A stretch of DNA of 64,000 nucleotides from Cupriavidus necator N-1. GTDB lineage: Bacteria; Pseudomonadota; Gammaproteobacteria; Burkholderiales; Burkholderiaceae. The position numbers and the translations under genes are program-made. Positions 6,384 through 61,285 of this stretch are shown piece by piece. The stretch covers positions 310,001 through 374,000 of the forward strand of contig NC_015726.1 in the NCBI RefSeq assembly GCF_000219215.1. The letters are read 5' to 3'. Every line of letters starts with the position of its first letter. Positions within the stretch are counted from its first letter, which is position 1. The notes below the pieces were generated by a model, which had not been told where the DNA came from, did not search any database, and saw only the letters and a program-made list of their open reading frames with translations.

Positions 6384-6692
6384 ATGACAACCGACAACCA
6401 AGGCAGCGGCAACAAGCCTGGCGATATCCCGCCGGAGCAGTCGCTGATCGAGTATCCCAGCCACTTCCCCATCAAGGTGATGGGCGCGATGCAGGACGGC
6501 TTTGCCGAGGCCATCGTCGAGCTGGTGCAGGGATTCGATCCCGACTTCCACGCAGGCAAGATGGAAATGCGCCCCTCGAGCGGCGGCAACTACCTGGGCC
6601 TGACCGTGACAGTGTGGGTCACCAGCCGCGAGCAGCTCGACGACTTGTATCGGGCGCTGACGTCGCATCCGATGGTGAAGGTCGTCCTCTAA
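6384..6692 (+). CDS. ybeD: DUF493 family protein YbeD
   Basis: A 102-residue cytoplasmic protein of the DUF493/YbeD family, which has an ACT-like fold. Similarity covers IEYPSHFPIKVMG and the C-terminal REQLDDLYRALTSHPMVKVVL; the first 20 residues are a low-complexity, family-typical variable tail. Its function is not established; in many genomes it sits between dacA and lipB and has been suspected to influence lipoate metabolism. Here the dacA neighbour is conserved but lipB/lipA are not next door; an inverted-repeat element and rlmI follow instead. Confidence 0.9.
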   Translation: MTTDNQGSGNKPGDIPPEQSLIEYPSHFPIKVMGAMQDGFAEAIVELVQGFDPDFHAGKMEMRPSSGGNYLGLTVTVWVTSREQLDDLYRALTSHPMVKVVL

Positions 6693-57182: not shown

Positions 57183-57986
57183 CTACGCGGCTTCCTGCAG
57201 CGCCGGGTTGCGCTGCTTGCGGTAGAGGAAGTCCAGCACCGCGGTGCGGCAGGCGTGGTAGGCCTTGTCATCGGCCAGCGCGACGCGGTCGCGCGGGCGC
57301 GGCAGGCCCACCTTCAGGATCTCGCCGATGGTCGCGGCCGGGCCGTTGGTCATCATGACGATGCGGTCGGCCAGCAGCACGGCCTCGTCGACATCGTGGG
57401 TCACCATCACCACCGTGCTGCGGGTGCGCGCCACGATCTTGATCAGCTCGTCCTGCAGGTGTGCGCGCGTGAGCGCATCGAGCGCGCCGAAGGGTTCGTC
57501 CATCAGCAGCACCTTGGGCGCCATCGCCAGCGCGCGGGCAATGCCCACGCGCTGCTTCATGCCGCCGGAGATTTCATGCGGGTACTTGTTCTCGGCGTGC
57601 GTCAGGCCCACCAGCGCCAGCGTGTCATGCGTGCGCGCCTTGAGCTGCGGCTTGCTCTCGTTGGCGGCGAAGACGCGCTCCACGCCCAGGTAGACGTTCT
57701 CGAAGCACGTCAGCCACGGCAGCAGCGAATGGTTCTGGAACACCACCGCGCGCTCTGGCCCCGGCCCGGCGATCTCGCGCCCGGCGCAGATCAGCGCGCC
57801 GGTGGTGGGCGTGGCCAGTCCCGCGACCAGGTTCAGCAGTGTGGACTTGCCGCAGCCGGAATGGCCGATCAGCGTGATGAACTCGCCCTCGGCGATCTGC
57901 AGGTTGATATCGCGCAGGGCGACGAACGGGCCCTTGCGGGTCTTGAAGGTCTGGCCGACGTTTTCGATGCTGACGAACTTGTCCAT
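57183..57986 (-). CDS. nrtD: nitrate ABC transporter ATP-binding protein
   Basis: A 267-residue ABC ATPase of the nitrate/sulfonate/taurine group. Walker A GHSGCGKSTLLN, Q loop, signature SGGMKQRVGIARAL, Walker B VLLMDEPFGALDAL and the switch His in VMVTHDVDEA. It drives nitrate import with the permease encoded 18 bp upstream. The C-terminal CysA-like extension of cyanobacterial NrtC is absent. Other substrates (nitrite, cyanate) are possible, but nasT points to nitrate. Confidence 0.92.
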   Translation of the reverse strand: MDKFVSIENVGQTFKTRKGPFVALRDINLQIAEGEFITLIGHSGCGKSTLLNLVAGLATPTTGALICAGREIAGPGPERAVVFQNHSLLPWLTCFENVYLGVERVFAANESKPQLKARTHDTLALVGLTHAENKYPHEISGGMKQRVGIARALAMAPKVLLMDEPFGALDALTRAHLQDELIKIVARTRSTVVMVTHDVDEAVLLADRIVMMTNGPAATIGEILKVGLPRPRDRVALADDKAYHACRTAVLDFLYRKQRNPALQEAA

Positions 57987-58004: not shown

Positions 58005-58910
58005 TCAGTTGGCGCCGTAGCTGAAGCGCCGGGCCAGCGCCAGCAGCGCGTGCTCGAGCAGCAGCCCGATGATGCCGATCACGAAGATCGCGATCACGAT
58101 GTGCTCGACCTTCAGGTTGTTCCATTCGTCCCACAGCCAGAAGCCGATGCCGGTGCCGCCGGTCAGCATCTCGGCCGCGACAATCACCAGCCACGCGGTG
58201 CCGATCGACAGCCGCACGCCGGTCAGCATGTAGGGCAGCACTGCGGGGAACAGCACCCGCGTGAATACCTTCCATTCCGACAGGTCCAGCACGCGCGCCA
58301 CGTTCAGGTAGTCCTGCGGCACGCGCGTGACGCCCACCGCGGTGTTGATCACCATCGGCCAGATTGAGCAGATAAAGATCGCCCAGATCGCGGCCGGGTT
58401 GGCGGCCTTGAACAGCAGCAGGCCGATCGGCAGCCACGCCAGCGGCGAGACCGGGCGCAGCAGGCTGATCACCGGCGCGGTCATCGCGTTCAGGAAGGCA
58501 AAGCGCCCGATCAGGAAGCCGGCCGGGATGCCGACCAGCGCGGCCAGGCCGAAGCCCGCCGCGACGCGCGCCAGCGATGCCAGCACGTTCCAGCCGATGC
58601 CCTGGTCATTGGGCCCGTTGCGGTAGAACGGGTCGGCAAACAGCGGCACCGCGGCGTTCCATGTGGCCTGCGGCGTGGGGATGGCCGGGATCATCGTGGC
58701 GATGCCGTGCCAGGCCAGCACGAACAGGGCAAAACCCAGTACCGGCGGCACGGCCTTGAGCACCGGCGCGGCGACCGCTTCGCGGCGTTGCGCACGCCGG
58801 GCCTGCGCGGCGATTTCCTGCTCGCGCCGGCGCGCCCGCTCCTTGGTGTCGGGGTCGGCGCTGGCGGCTACGGTTGCACCATCGGGCGTAGTGTGGGCTA
58901 TGGCATTCAC
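58005..58910 (-). CDS. nrtB: nitrate ABC transporter permease
   Basis: A 301-residue permease of the NtrB/CmpB type. N-terminal cytoplasmic segment rich in charged residues, a first helix (VPPVLGFALFVLAWHGI), then five helices. The ABC coupling loop is NVARVLDLSEWKVFTRVLFPAVLP. Family motifs RPVSPLAWLPIGLLLF and VGVTRVPQDYLN are present. It lies between the binding-protein and ATPase genes. Confidence 0.93.
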   Translation of the reverse strand: MNAIAHTTPDGATVAASADPDTKERARRREQEIAAQARRAQRREAVAAPVLKAVPPVLGFALFVLAWHGIATMIPAIPTPQATWNAAVPLFADPFYRNGPNDQGIGWNVLASLARVAAGFGLAALVGIPAGFLIGRFAFLNAMTAPVISLLRPVSPLAWLPIGLLLFKAANPAAIWAIFICSIWPMVINTAVGVTRVPQDYLNVARVLDLSEWKVFTRVLFPAVLPYMLTGVRLSIGTAWLVIVAAEMLTGGTGIGFWLWDEWNNLKVEHIVIAIFVIGIIGLLLEHALLALARRFSYGAN

Positions 58911-58961: not shown

Positions 58962-60272
58962 TCAGGCCTTGATCTTGAAACCGTCGGCGTAGGCCTTGGG
59001 GTCCTTGCCGTCCCAGACCACGCCGTCGATCAGCTTGGCGCTGCGCATGTCGCTCTTGGGCAGCGGCACCTGGGCGGCGGCGGCGGCCTGCTTGTAGACG
59101 TCGATGCGGTTGACCTGCCTGGCCACGGCGAGATAGTCCGGATGTTCCTTCAGCAGGCCCCAGCGCTTGTGCTGGGTCAGGAACCACATGCCGTCGGACA
59201 GGTACGGGTAGTTGGCGCTGCCGTCCTGGTAGAACTTCATCGCGTCGGGGTCGTCCCAGGTCTTGCCCAGGCCGTTGGTGTAGCGGCCCAGCATGCGGTC
59301 CAGGATGATGTCCATGTCGGTGTTGACGTAGGACTTGGCGGCGATGGTCTCGGCGGTCTTGCGGCGGTTGGAGGCCGACGCATCGATGAACTTCGATGCC
59401 TCCAGCACCGCGGCCACCATCGCGCGCGCGGTGTTGGGGTATTTCTGCACGAATTCGGCGGTGGTGCCCAGGGTCTTCTCGGGGTGGCTCTTCCAGATGG
59501 CCTGCGTGGTCTCGGCGGTGAAGCCGATCTTGTCGGCGATGGCGCGCGCGCCCCAGGGCTCGCCCACGCAGAAGCCGTCCATATTGCCCACGCGCATATT
59601 GGCCACCATCTGCGGCGGCGGCACCGTGATCGCCTTGGCGTCCTGCATCGGGTTGATGCCGTTGGCTGCCAGCCAGTAGTACAGCCACATCGCATGCGTG
59701 CCGGTGGGGAAGGTCTGGGCGAAGGTGTAGTCGCGCTTCTCCTTCATCATCAGCGCCTTCAGGCTGGCGCCGTCCTTCACGCCTTTCTCGGCGAGCTTGG
59801 ACGACAGCGTGATGGCCTGGCCGTTGTGGTTCAGGTTCATCAGCACGGCCATGTCTTTTTTCGGACCGCCGATGCCCAGCTGCACGCCGTAGATCAGGCC
59901 ATACAGCACGTGCGCCGCGTCCAGCTCGCCGTTGACCAGCTTGTCGCGCACGCCGGCCCACGAGGCTTCCTTGGTCGGCGTGATCTTGATGCCGTATTTC
60001 TTGTCCAGCCCGAGCGTGGCGGCCATCACCACCGAGGCGCAGTCGGTCAGCGGGATAAAGCCGATGCGCACATCGGTCTTCTCGGGCGCATCCGAGCCCG
60101 CAGCCCACGCACCGGCGCGCACCAGCGGATCGACCAGCGTCATCACGCTGGCGCCGGCGATGGTGGCCAGCACGCGGCGGCGGCCGCTGCTGGCCGGGAC
60201 GGCGTCGGCAGCCGCGTCGGAAACGTGGACGGCTGCGTGCAGCGGCTTGGCAATCCTGAGGCGAGAGGGCAT
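58962..60272 (-). CDS. nrtA: nitrate ABC transporter substrate-binding protein (NrtA/CmpA family)
   Basis: A 436-residue periplasmic receptor. The N-terminus has a twin-arginine-like signal (SSGRRRVLATIAGASVM) before ASDAPEKTDVRIGFIPLTDCAS, where NrtA similarity begins. Further family blocks: NLNHNGQAITLSSKLAEKGV, FPTGTHAMWLYYWLAANGI, VGNMDGFCVGEPWGARAI. The gene starts 15 bp after an intrinsic terminator in an ANTAR-type leader, so expression likely depends on NasT antitermination. Confidence 0.93.
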   Translation of the reverse strand: MPSRLRIAKPLHAAVHVSDAAADAVPASSGRRRVLATIAGASVMTLVDPLVRAGAWAAGSDAPEKTDVRIGFIPLTDCASVVMAATLGLDKKYGIKITPTKEASWAGVRDKLVNGELDAAHVLYGLIYGVQLGIGGPKKDMAVLMNLNHNGQAITLSSKLAEKGVKDGASLKALMMKEKRDYTFAQTFPTGTHAMWLYYWLAANGINPMQDAKAITVPPPQMVANMRVGNMDGFCVGEPWGARAIADKIGFTAETTQAIWKSHPEKTLGTTAEFVQKYPNTARAMVAAVLEASKFIDASASNRRKTAETIAAKSYVNTDMDIILDRMLGRYTNGLGKTWDDPDAMKFYQDGSANYPYLSDGMWFLTQHKRWGLLKEHPDYLAVARQVNRIDVYKQAAAAAQVPLPKSDMRSAKLIDGVVWDGKDPKAYADGFKIKA

Positions 60273-60286
60273 TGCATGGCTCCAAG

Positions 60287-60346
60287 AAAAAAGGCGTCCC
60301 TGCCGCGACCGGCTTCGCCAGAAGACCGGTGCGGCGCAGGGACGCC
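60287..60346 (-). terminator. leader terminator (attenuator) in front of nrtA
   Basis: The outer 11-bp arms GGCGTCCCTGC and GCAGGGACGCC, with a second inner stem, are followed on the minus strand by six T and then by the nrtA start codon 15 bp later. A terminator just ahead of a gene is the mark of an attenuator. Confidence 0.85.
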
Positions 60347-60364
60347 GTTGTCCGTGGCGTGACG

Positions 60365-60416
60365 CAGCCCGCGTTGGCCGTGTCCGCCGAAATGGTTGGT
60401 CGGCCGCCGTTGGCCG
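60365..60416 (-). promoter_or_regulatory. two-hexaloop ANTAR RNA motif in the nrtA leader
   Basis: On the minus strand the first hairpin is CGGCC-AACGGC-GGCCG (60401-60416) and the second CGGCC-AACGCG-GGCTG (60365-60380, one G-U pair). Both hexaloops have A at position 1 and G at position 4, the invariant residues of ANTAR targets. A 20-nt linker separates them and the terminator follows 18 nt later. The ANTAR protein NasT is encoded directly upstream. Confidence 0.85.
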
Positions 60417-60637
60417 ATACCTGCATAACGCAAGGCGTATGCCAGCCTGTGCAGTGCAGCATTCGAGGGCGGATTTGTGACGGATCGGGAGGGAATGGTC
60501 GGATGCGGTGCGCGCGCGGTCGCCGCCGCCACATTCGGGGGAGCCGGGGAGGGAGGTGACGCCGCGCGGCAGCGCCAGGAGCGTGCATTGCACCAGTCGC
60601 GTGCGGCAGCGCACCACGACTGGCAGGCGGGAGCGGC

Positions 60638-61285
60638 TCAGCCCATCACGTCGATCACGCGCTGGGCCGCGTCCACCAGCTTCAGGCCGCGCTCCATCGC
60701 CATGCTGCGCAGGCGCTTGTAGGCCTCGTCCTCGCTGAGGCCGCGCGCCTGCATCAGCAGCCCCTTGGCGCGCTCGACCACCTTGCGCTCGGCCAGCTTG
60801 AGCCGGGTGGCATCGAGCTCGGCGCGCAGCTGCTGGTCCAGTTCAAAGCGAGCGTAGGCCACGTCGAGCACGGTCTTGACGCGCTCGGCGCGCAGGCCGT
60901 CGACGATATAGGCGGTGATCCCCGCCGTCAGCGCTGCCTTGATGCGCTGGCTGTCGTCGTTGTCGGTGAACAGCACGATCGGGCGCGGCGCATGCTGGGT
61001 CGAGACGCAGACATGCTCGATGGTGTCGCGCGCGGCGGATTCGGACGCGATGATCAGCATGTCGGGCTGGGTGGCCGTGATCACATCCGGCAGGCGCAGG
61101 TCGGCATCGACGATCTGGATCTCGGTAAAGCCCGCGCTGACCAGCCCGCCGCGGATGATCTCGACGTTTAGCGGGTCGGCGTCATGTGGGTCCCGCACGA
61201 GCAGGATCCGCAACACCCGGCCGCCGGCAGTCGGCGGGGCAGGTGCTGCGGGGGGGGGCGATGGGGGCGGGTTGCGTCGTGTCAT
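60638..61285 (-). CDS. nasT: NasT-like ANTAR response regulator (antiterminator)
   Basis: A 215-residue protein with a Pro/Ala-rich N-terminal tail, a pseudo-receiver domain (RILLVRDPHDADPLNVEII, MLIIASESAARDT), and a C-terminal ANTAR RNA-binding domain (LAERKVVERAKGLLMQARGLSEDEAYKRLR in two blocks). NasT binds two-hexaloop leader RNA and prevents termination when nitrate is present; it is normally held by the sensor NasS, not seen here. ATG 61285 is chosen because a longer start (61315) would overlap the probable -12 promoter element. The tail is encoded by a run of nine C. Confidence 0.92.
   Translation of the reverse strand: MTRRNPPPSPPPAAPAPPTAGGRVLRILLVRDPHDADPLNVEIIRGGLVSAGFTEIQIVDADLRLPDVITATQPDMLIIASESAARDTIEHVCVSTQHAPRPIVLFTDNDDSQRIKAALTAGITAYIVDGLRAERVKTVLDVAYARFELDQQLRAELDATRLKLAERKVVERAKGLLMQARGLSEDEAYKRLRSMAMERGLKLVDAAQRVIDVMG

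Follow-up and report, generated by a model that had tools for sequence, protein, structure and literature searches.

Cupriavidus is a genus used in biotechnology, and the stretch of DNA analysed here (64,000 nt of Cupriavidus necator N-1, referred to as the window) holds on its minus strand, in this order, nasT, a 365-bp gap that contains an RNA leader, nrtA, nrtB and nrtD:

60638..61285, minus strand: nasT, 215 aa, with a receiver-like N-terminal domain and an ANTAR domain (Pfam ANTAR, 70.4 bits)
58962..60272, minus strand: nrtA, nitrate-binding protein, the first gene after the leader (Pfam NMT1_2, 351-353 bits)
58005..58910, minus strand: nrtB, ABC permease (Pfam BPD_transp_1)
57183..57986, minus strand: nrtD, ABC ATPase (Pfam ABC_tran)

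This order, with the gene for an ANTAR protein next to the leader, had already been given in the initial annotation and is confirmed here. The nasT product is the sole ANTAR protein found in the window's own genome (G000). Among the loci compared, the closest NrtA is that of Cupriavidus necator UYPR2.512 (L043; 99.5% identity). The leader and the sequence ahead of it comprise the following features:

60589..60605, minus strand: NtrC-like site CGCACGCGACTGGTGCA; the promoter starts 161 nt downstream
60430..60444, minus strand: sigma54-type promoter motif TGGCATACGCCTTGC, predicted +1 near 60418
60400..60417, minus strand: P1, hexaloop hairpin TCGGCC-AACGGC-GGCCGA, loop 60411-60406, 5'-terminal
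60365..60380, minus strand: P2, hexaloop hairpin CGGCC-AACGCG-GGCTG, loop 60375-60370, outward extension with mismatches
60340..60353, minus strand: P3, hexaloop hairpin GGAC-AACGGC-GTCC, 4-bp stem, A1/G4 loop
60293..60346, minus strand: terminator hairpin, arms 60346-60336 and 60303-60293, plus an inner stem
60287..60292, minus strand: six-T run of the terminator, read from the sequence

The NtrC-like site has two mismatches to TGCACCN5GGTGCA, which we take to be the NtrC consensus; an equally good site occurs in 1% of 200 shuffles, and sites with at most two mismatches are present in 21 of the 42 leaders scanned.

The initial annotation described an ANTAR leader with two hexaloops, AACGGC (P1) and AACGCG (P2), and both hairpins are present. 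Its terminator also stands: the arms are complementary over 11 bp and are followed by six T, and the predicted fold pairs 9 bp directly and adds the inner stem. The distance from the T-run to the nrtA start, given as 15 bp, counts to 14 nt (ATG at 60272). That description captured an ANTAR-type attenuator upstream of nrtABD, but missed both the sigma54-type promoter and a third hexaloop, P3, whose place inside the terminator's left arm hid it from view: the second half of the P3 loop and its right arm form the start of that arm. In predicted folds, the RNA cut at the end of P3 holds all three hexaloops, and in the full leader P3 is replaced by the terminator (-75.6 kcal/mol, versus -63.8 kcal/mol with P3 forced); the terminator folded with its T-run reaches -43.1 kcal/mol. 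The fold of 60280-60440 beats 200 of 200 shuffles (z -4.8). Single A1/G4 hexaloop hairpins number 122 on both strands of the 64-kb window, and a triple of them (4-bp stems, at most 70 nt) occurs once, at the leader. P3 is likely an antiterminator that is mutually exclusive with the terminator, and an arm overlap of this type is described for eut, amiE and nasF (PMC3369931).

Dual-hexaloop ANTAR targets are recognised by two hairpins, each with a stem of 3 bp or more and an A1/G4 loop, by an overlap of the second hairpin with an intrinsic terminator's 5' arm, and by a short linker. P1, P2 and P3 are all hairpins of this kind, the overlap is provided by P3, and P2 and P3 are separated by 11 nt (a hand count between the 5-bp P2 and 4-bp P3 stems), compared with linkers of 5-12 nt for eut in PMC3369931 and 2-25 nt in PMC8164766. 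P1 and P2 lie 20 nt apart between 5-bp stems in the window, and 11-53 nt apart over the relatives. The leader departs from the rule of exactly two hexaloops, with three in 31 of 31 Cupriavidus-group leaders. An ANTAR covariance-model match had also been expected. At the gathering threshold of Rfam there is none in the window or in seven further loci; the best sub-threshold match is the narK RNA (RF03032), with 20.7 bits versus a cut-off of 43.2 on 60443-60371, and RF03032 has no match above 43.2 bits in the whole G000 genome. Taken together, these sequence features most likely describe an ANTAR-type antitermination attenuator.

How would three hexaloops cooperate in one leader? We consider it very probable that NasT loads an upstream hexaloop, holds P3 and blocks the terminator, so that nrtABD is transcribed. 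Transcription would start at the sigma54-type promoter, with +1 near 60418 and NtrC as its probable activator when nitrogen is limiting; P1 would form from the first ~20 nt, followed by P2 and then by P3. By default, the more stable terminator would override P3, and transcription would stop at the T-run to give a leader RNA of about 130 nt. Free NasT would load on P2 and/or P1 as the recruitment step, move to P3 and hold it, in which state the terminator could not form and nrtABD would be transcribed. P2 is the likely recruitment hairpin. The scheme for EutV also has a recruitment hairpin followed by an antiterminator hairpin (PMC3369931, PMC8934654), and a successive hand-over from one to the other is the model proposed for a dimeric ANTAR protein in PMC8934654.

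The initial annotation had instead cast P1 and P2 as the antiterminating pair, with the terminator merely downstream. Both are real hexaloops, yet neither overlaps the terminator, and base-pair competition therefore offers no way for binding at P1 or P2 to exclude it; the overlap is supplied by P3. The nrtA leaders of Ralstonia moreover lack P1, and the pair kept from Cupriavidus to Ralstonia is P2 and P3, of which P3 competes with the terminator. We therefore regard an antiterminating P1-P2 pair as very improbable.

We compared the window with 46 loci found with NasT. A leader was recognised in 42 of these, or 43 including the window, by a P3 pattern in which A1, G4 and a portion of the arm are set. 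Four loci fall outside the pattern: L037, where the contig ends too soon for a leader; L046, with a 68-bp gap and no leader found; L029 of Cupriavidus cauae, where the 36 bp between nasT and nrtA (6591-6628) hold no leader, only a terminator-like remnant; and L044, where a leader is present with another P3 loop and was hence missed. Two further genomes, G009 (C64) and G011 (C17), have seemingly lost the nrtA leader and kept the one before narK described below, as judged by match coordinates: the NrtA match begins about 206 nt beyond nasT. The nrtA leader, gone in C. cauae and seemingly in these two, is thus dispensable in places. The sigma54 motif is found in 42 of the 46 intergenic stretches scanned and is absent from L029, L044, L045 and L046.

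All four inner pairs of P3 form in 19 of 19 distinct rows, the loop letters being set by the search pattern. P2 has A1 in 43 of 43 leaders, and its G4 fails once (L042, A at loop position 4). P1, P2 and P3 with A1/G4 loops are present together in all 31 Cupriavidus-group leaders, a set that includes two records labelled otherwise (L020 and L025); for P1 in the relatives, the best of the candidates within a short stretch was chosen, provided that 4 or more of 6 pairs formed. A stricter automatic rule, applied to 46 nrtA leaders, flagged both P1 and P2 in 33, one of them in 12 and none in 1. For the terminator, the 6-nt core of the left arm has a fully pairing partner 36-85 nt downstream in 42 of 43 leaders, where L028 and L033 were counted on the best-scoring stretch without T following. 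A P1/P2 strand swap was considered, both hairpins having GGCC/GGCC in the necator group, and rejected as a general feature because the P2 stem differs in, e.g., L015, L017-L023, L027 and L028.

Covariation supports P2. Alignment A1 holds 33 of the 43 leaders, with mostly near-duplicates omitted, and A2, on which the covariance model R1 is built, holds 26 of these 33; L017, L018, L020, L021, L023, L042 and L045 were dropped for a shifted register or departure from the pattern. In A2, which spans P2 and P3, 93.6% of cells pair, 40 cells carry double changes versus 11.9 in shuffles and at most 8 with partners slid, and 7 of 8 P2 pairs have changed on both sides. P3 hardly varies and for that reason shows almost no covariation; it is backed by its conservation, which could partly reflect the terminator, and by the terminator overlap. 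Searching G000 with R1 retrieves only the model's own training leader above 25 bits (62.2 bits); the next matches, at 22.4 and 20.4 bits, were rejected as stretches that look coding by eye. Over 150 genomes of the family, R1 has matches in 30. Of six weak matches read outside Cupriavidus and Ralstonia, two (L239, L240) seem to be fortuitous hits to coding sequence.

By these sequence comparisons, P2-P3 is the core common to Cupriavidus and Ralstonia, and P1 is an extra hexaloop of the Cupriavidus group only. What, then, is the role of P1? In a classical dual-hexaloop leader, only P2 and P3 would work, and P1 would cap the 5' end for RNA stability or as start-site context. The P2-P3 loop-to-loop distance is tight from Ralstonia to Cupriavidus (22-27 nt; 19 nt in L045), while P1-P3 varies over 60-100 nt in nrtA leaders, and for EutV a linker lengthened by 20 nt abolished antitermination (PMC8934654). 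P1 is also dispensed with in Ralstonia-type nrtA leaders: it is absent from 11 of 11, where P2 starts 0-4 nt past the predicted +1. In the Cupriavidus group the base of the P1 stem lies exactly at the predicted +1 in 19 of 31 leaders (range -3 to +3, one mismatch allowed). Against a mere cap, A1, A2, C3 and G4 of P1 are kept in 13 of 13 distinct rows; in addition, the leaders before narK show a 5' hexaloop and P3 alone, so that a 5' hexaloop can evidently be the working partner. A capping role for P1 has a substantial chance, although somewhat below even, and we favour the three-hexaloop attenuator in which P1 may also load NasT.

The initial annotation, in which NasT regulates the genes directly downstream of its own, would hold for the nrtABD leader and tells half of the story. 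A second leader of the same type, which would bring narK-nirB under the same protein, lies at about 785.56-785.76 kb of contig C1 of G000 (minus strand; L058 1400-1600), a contig other than that of nasT; the weak pointers to C1:785.6 kb were 25.1 bits with the Rfam narK model and 18.9 bits with R1. Its order is sigma54 motif, 5' hexaloop, a middle hairpin without hexaloop, the P3 14-mer, terminator, a gene for a narK-like transporter, and nirB. The exact P3 14-mer is present in 59 of 60 Cupriavidus genomes, with 122 matches in total (table sum) versus 32 for the reversed control. We read 110 of these matches (the other 12 include the window's own): 46 lie before nrtA, 54 before narK and 10 before neither. 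The sigma54 motif accompanies 100 of the 110, exactly the nrtA and narK leaders, and none of the other 10. From the 5' hexaloop to P3 the narK leaders measure 58-61 nt in 53 of 54 cases and 64 nt in one, with no other hexaloop seen in them. The middle hairpin has 8 of 9 pairs changed on both sides and 93.4% of cells paired in alignment A5, whose 52 distinct rows represent the 54 leaders (2 are identical in that stretch) and are the same rows from which the structure was drawn. A P3 pair spaced in this way would fail the short-linker rule if the linker were open.

The bridged layout extends further. In 13 Ralstonia-group genomes (g24, taken as Ralstonia on two contigs that agree by coordinates with named Ralstonia loci), 25 matches resolve into 12 nrtA leaders that have P2-P3 alone, and 13 narK leaders in which the 5' hexaloop lies 54-55 nt ahead of P3 and a middle hairpin is seen by eye. 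Nor is it confined to Burkholderiaceae: in L044 (6580-6703), from an Acidiferrobacterales assembly, a leader behind nasT has two hexaloops 64 nt apart, a predicted hairpin in the interval and a terminator that shares the P3 arm; the sigma54 motif was not found there by the pattern used, and masked sequence precedes nrtA. Set beside the tight nrtA and the spaced narK layouts, the window leader combines a tight and a spaced hexaloop pair.

A plain nasT terminator with decorative hairpins would explain the position downstream of nasT. It would leave unexplained that a conserved sigma54 motif of its own lies ahead of the leader, that only 14 nt separate it from nrtA, that one arm is common to the terminator and a hexaloop hairpin, and that a second such leader stands before narK on a contig without nasT. 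Such a reading is the least credible of those considered here, and an attenuator is by far preferred.

Which features of NasT bear on its activity? The protein combines a receiver-like domain with ANTAR, as in NasS-NasT systems, is 42-44% identical to NasT of Caballeronia, Burkholderia and Paracoccus, and its AlphaFold2 model (pLDDT 82, pTM 0.64) has EutV (6ww6, 6wsh), then Rv1626 and AmiR, as best PDB matches. Its alignment with EutV spans residues 35-211 and scores 60.6 bits. With the EutV contact residues of PMC8934654 placed on this alignment at a two-residue numbering offset, NasT retains the Tyr that contacts the hexaloop, the essential Met, R142 and K143, and differs at four contact positions (K147 to Arg, N173 to Glu, R175 to Gly, R177 to Lys). 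Unlike Caballeronia NasT, it has no Response_reg Pfam match; it has no NIT match in Pfam either, and no other ANTAR match is found in G000. The phospho-acceptor Asp of EutV is replaced by Ala in the aligned Cupriavidus and Ralstonia rows; the position is Asp in Caballeronia, Burkholderia, Paracoccus, L044 and L046, and His in L045.

These features, together with the search for NasS, mean that the nitrate-induced antitermination of the initial annotation is not supported as stated: nitrate control would be by analogy, the phospho-acceptor Asp is missing from NasT, and the search for a strong relative of NasS gave NrtA alone. In Paracoccus denitrificans, NasT is held in a complex by NasS, a nitrate-binding protein without an export signal (PMC3795266). 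We searched for such a protein with a NasS-like protein of Caballeronia as query (nasT-nasS order, no annotation in the record). A signal-less cytoplasmic NasS was not found in G000, where E <= 1e-30 yields NrtA only. In NMT1_2 scores, the next G000 protein after NrtA has 94.7 bits, and two NasS proteins have 296 and 180 bits. NrtA itself carries a Tat-like signal by eye, and an RRR motif is present in the ten Cupriavidus N-termini examined. At 1e-30, 56 of 60 Cupriavidus genomes have matches: 54 with one strong match (365-407 bits), four of these with an extra weak relative (144-164 bits), and 2 (G042, G046) in two pieces. A NasS-like protein besides NrtA was found neither in 56 of the 60 sampled Cupriavidus genomes nor in 12 Ralstonia-group genomes; the latter, as well as G094, have one match each. 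The best matches lie within 400 nt of an nrtA-leader motif in 50 of 56 genomes; five more are directly behind nasT (G009, G011, G026, G029, G051), and the sixth is the split one of G046, whose second piece adjoins such a motif.

No match was obtained in G001, G016, G045 and G047, of which G045 and G047 are 78% and 54% complete. Thus 2 of 54 near-complete Cupriavidus genomes, G001 and G016 (99% complete), are without NrtA. They also miss NasT in a NasT sequence search that covered 11 of the 60 Cupriavidus genomes, and their only match to it comes from the ANTAR portion of a NIT-ANTAR protein. In both (L250, L251), the gene for this NasR-like protein adjoins a formate/nitrite-type transporter gene (identity scanned in L250, by eye in L251) that has its own P3-like hexaloop. 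Both also keep the narK leader, a regulator exchange on conserved RNA targets.

Has NasT in Cupriavidus perhaps lost nitrate control altogether? A constitutively active NasT, with expression set by NtrC and sigma54 alone, would fit the Ala at the phospho-acceptor position, the lack of a NIT match and the finding of NrtA alone as a strong relative of NasS. However, the conserved attenuators, 100 of which were read, would then have no purpose; the NasT of P. denitrificans is controlled by its complex with NasS (PMC3795266); and where NrtA and NasT are both missing, in G001 and G016, the only ANTAR match comes with a nitrate-sensing NIT domain. We judge constitutive activity to be unlikely. A tentative idea, which we hold to be possible though rather doubtful, is that NrtA doubles as the nitrate sensor of NasT, acting in the cytoplasm either ahead of Tat export or in its absence, and that the three-hexaloop leader is a relay with a 5' loading site. 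If so, the switch would read nitrate via the product of the first gene in its own operon. The single NasS relative fits this idea, and so do G001/G016 and G094; loss of a linked nasT-nrtABD cluster would look alike. G094 (L241, another member of the Burkholderiaceae) has nasT, the leader, an NrtA-like protein, nirB and a nitrate-reductase-like gene (by eye); its NrtA-like protein shows no obvious signal peptide, and nrtBD gave no match within the 10 kb read. The tree built from 14 NrtA/NasS proteins leaves 8 of 11 inner branches open, and the least number of forced signal losses is 1.

Among the closest described arrangements is nasR-nasF of Klebsiella, with the same order of ANTAR gene, leader, nitrate-binding protein, permease and ATPase, which we see in Erwinia rhapontici; the NasF-type protein of Erwinia has 63% identity with the window's NrtA. 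The nasF leader likewise has an antiterminator mini-hairpin in a terminator arm (PMC3369931), and nas of Klebsiella oxytoca is likewise under Ntr control (PMC5424462), NtrC being predicted here. In contrast to nasR-nasF, the regulator in the window is receiver-like and has no NIT-ANTAR architecture, and the leader has three hexaloops and not two. The NasS-NasT systems of Paracoccus, Azotobacter and Pseudomonas share a NasT-type regulator, nitrate assimilation genes and a leader upstream of the target (PMC3795266, PMC5424462), whereas here no signal-less NasS was found, only NrtA with its Tat-like signal, and Ala replaces the phospho-acceptor Asp. The EutV targets eutP, eutG, eutS and eutA of Enterococcus faecalis have recruitment and terminator-overlapping antiterminator hairpins with A1/G4 hexaloops (PMC3369931, PMC8934654); they have two hexaloops and a 5-12-nt linker, compared with three here, and about 60 nt with a hairpin between in the narK pair.

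The consensus of the Rfam narK RNA, RF03032, resembles the leaders in its sigma54-like GGCaCA...UUGC, its CCAACGGCGG hexaloop hairpin and its CGAC-AAAGAC-GUCG, which is a second A1/G4 hexaloop that is unmarked in the structure line. It differs in having no middle hairpin, and the window leader stays under its cut-off. By its sequence, the RF03032 family is probably an ANTAR target. Neither a three-hexaloop leader nor a bridging hairpin was met in a limited literature search that covered few subscription journals; a partial precedent is the EutX small RNA, described in PMC8934654 with an additional single hexaloop besides its dual motif.

Nature thus seems to offer variants that are probably targets of one regulator: tight (Ralstonia nrtA), bridged over about 55-60 nt (narK) and both (Cupriavidus nrtA). 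Comparing the tight, bridged and combined leaders would test the hexaloop spacing rule directly, and the missing NasS turns the source of the nitrate signal into a testable question.

Two minor observations concern related leaders. In narK leaders (e.g., L136, L159), an unpaired linker CACCCCACA joins the 5' hexaloop to the bridging hairpin; 29 of the 54 leaders have it letter for letter, and most others have a similar one. In L235 and L236 (G097 and G184, other Burkholderiaceae), a similar leader of P3 and terminator stands before a possible chemotaxis-like protein, as judged by eye.
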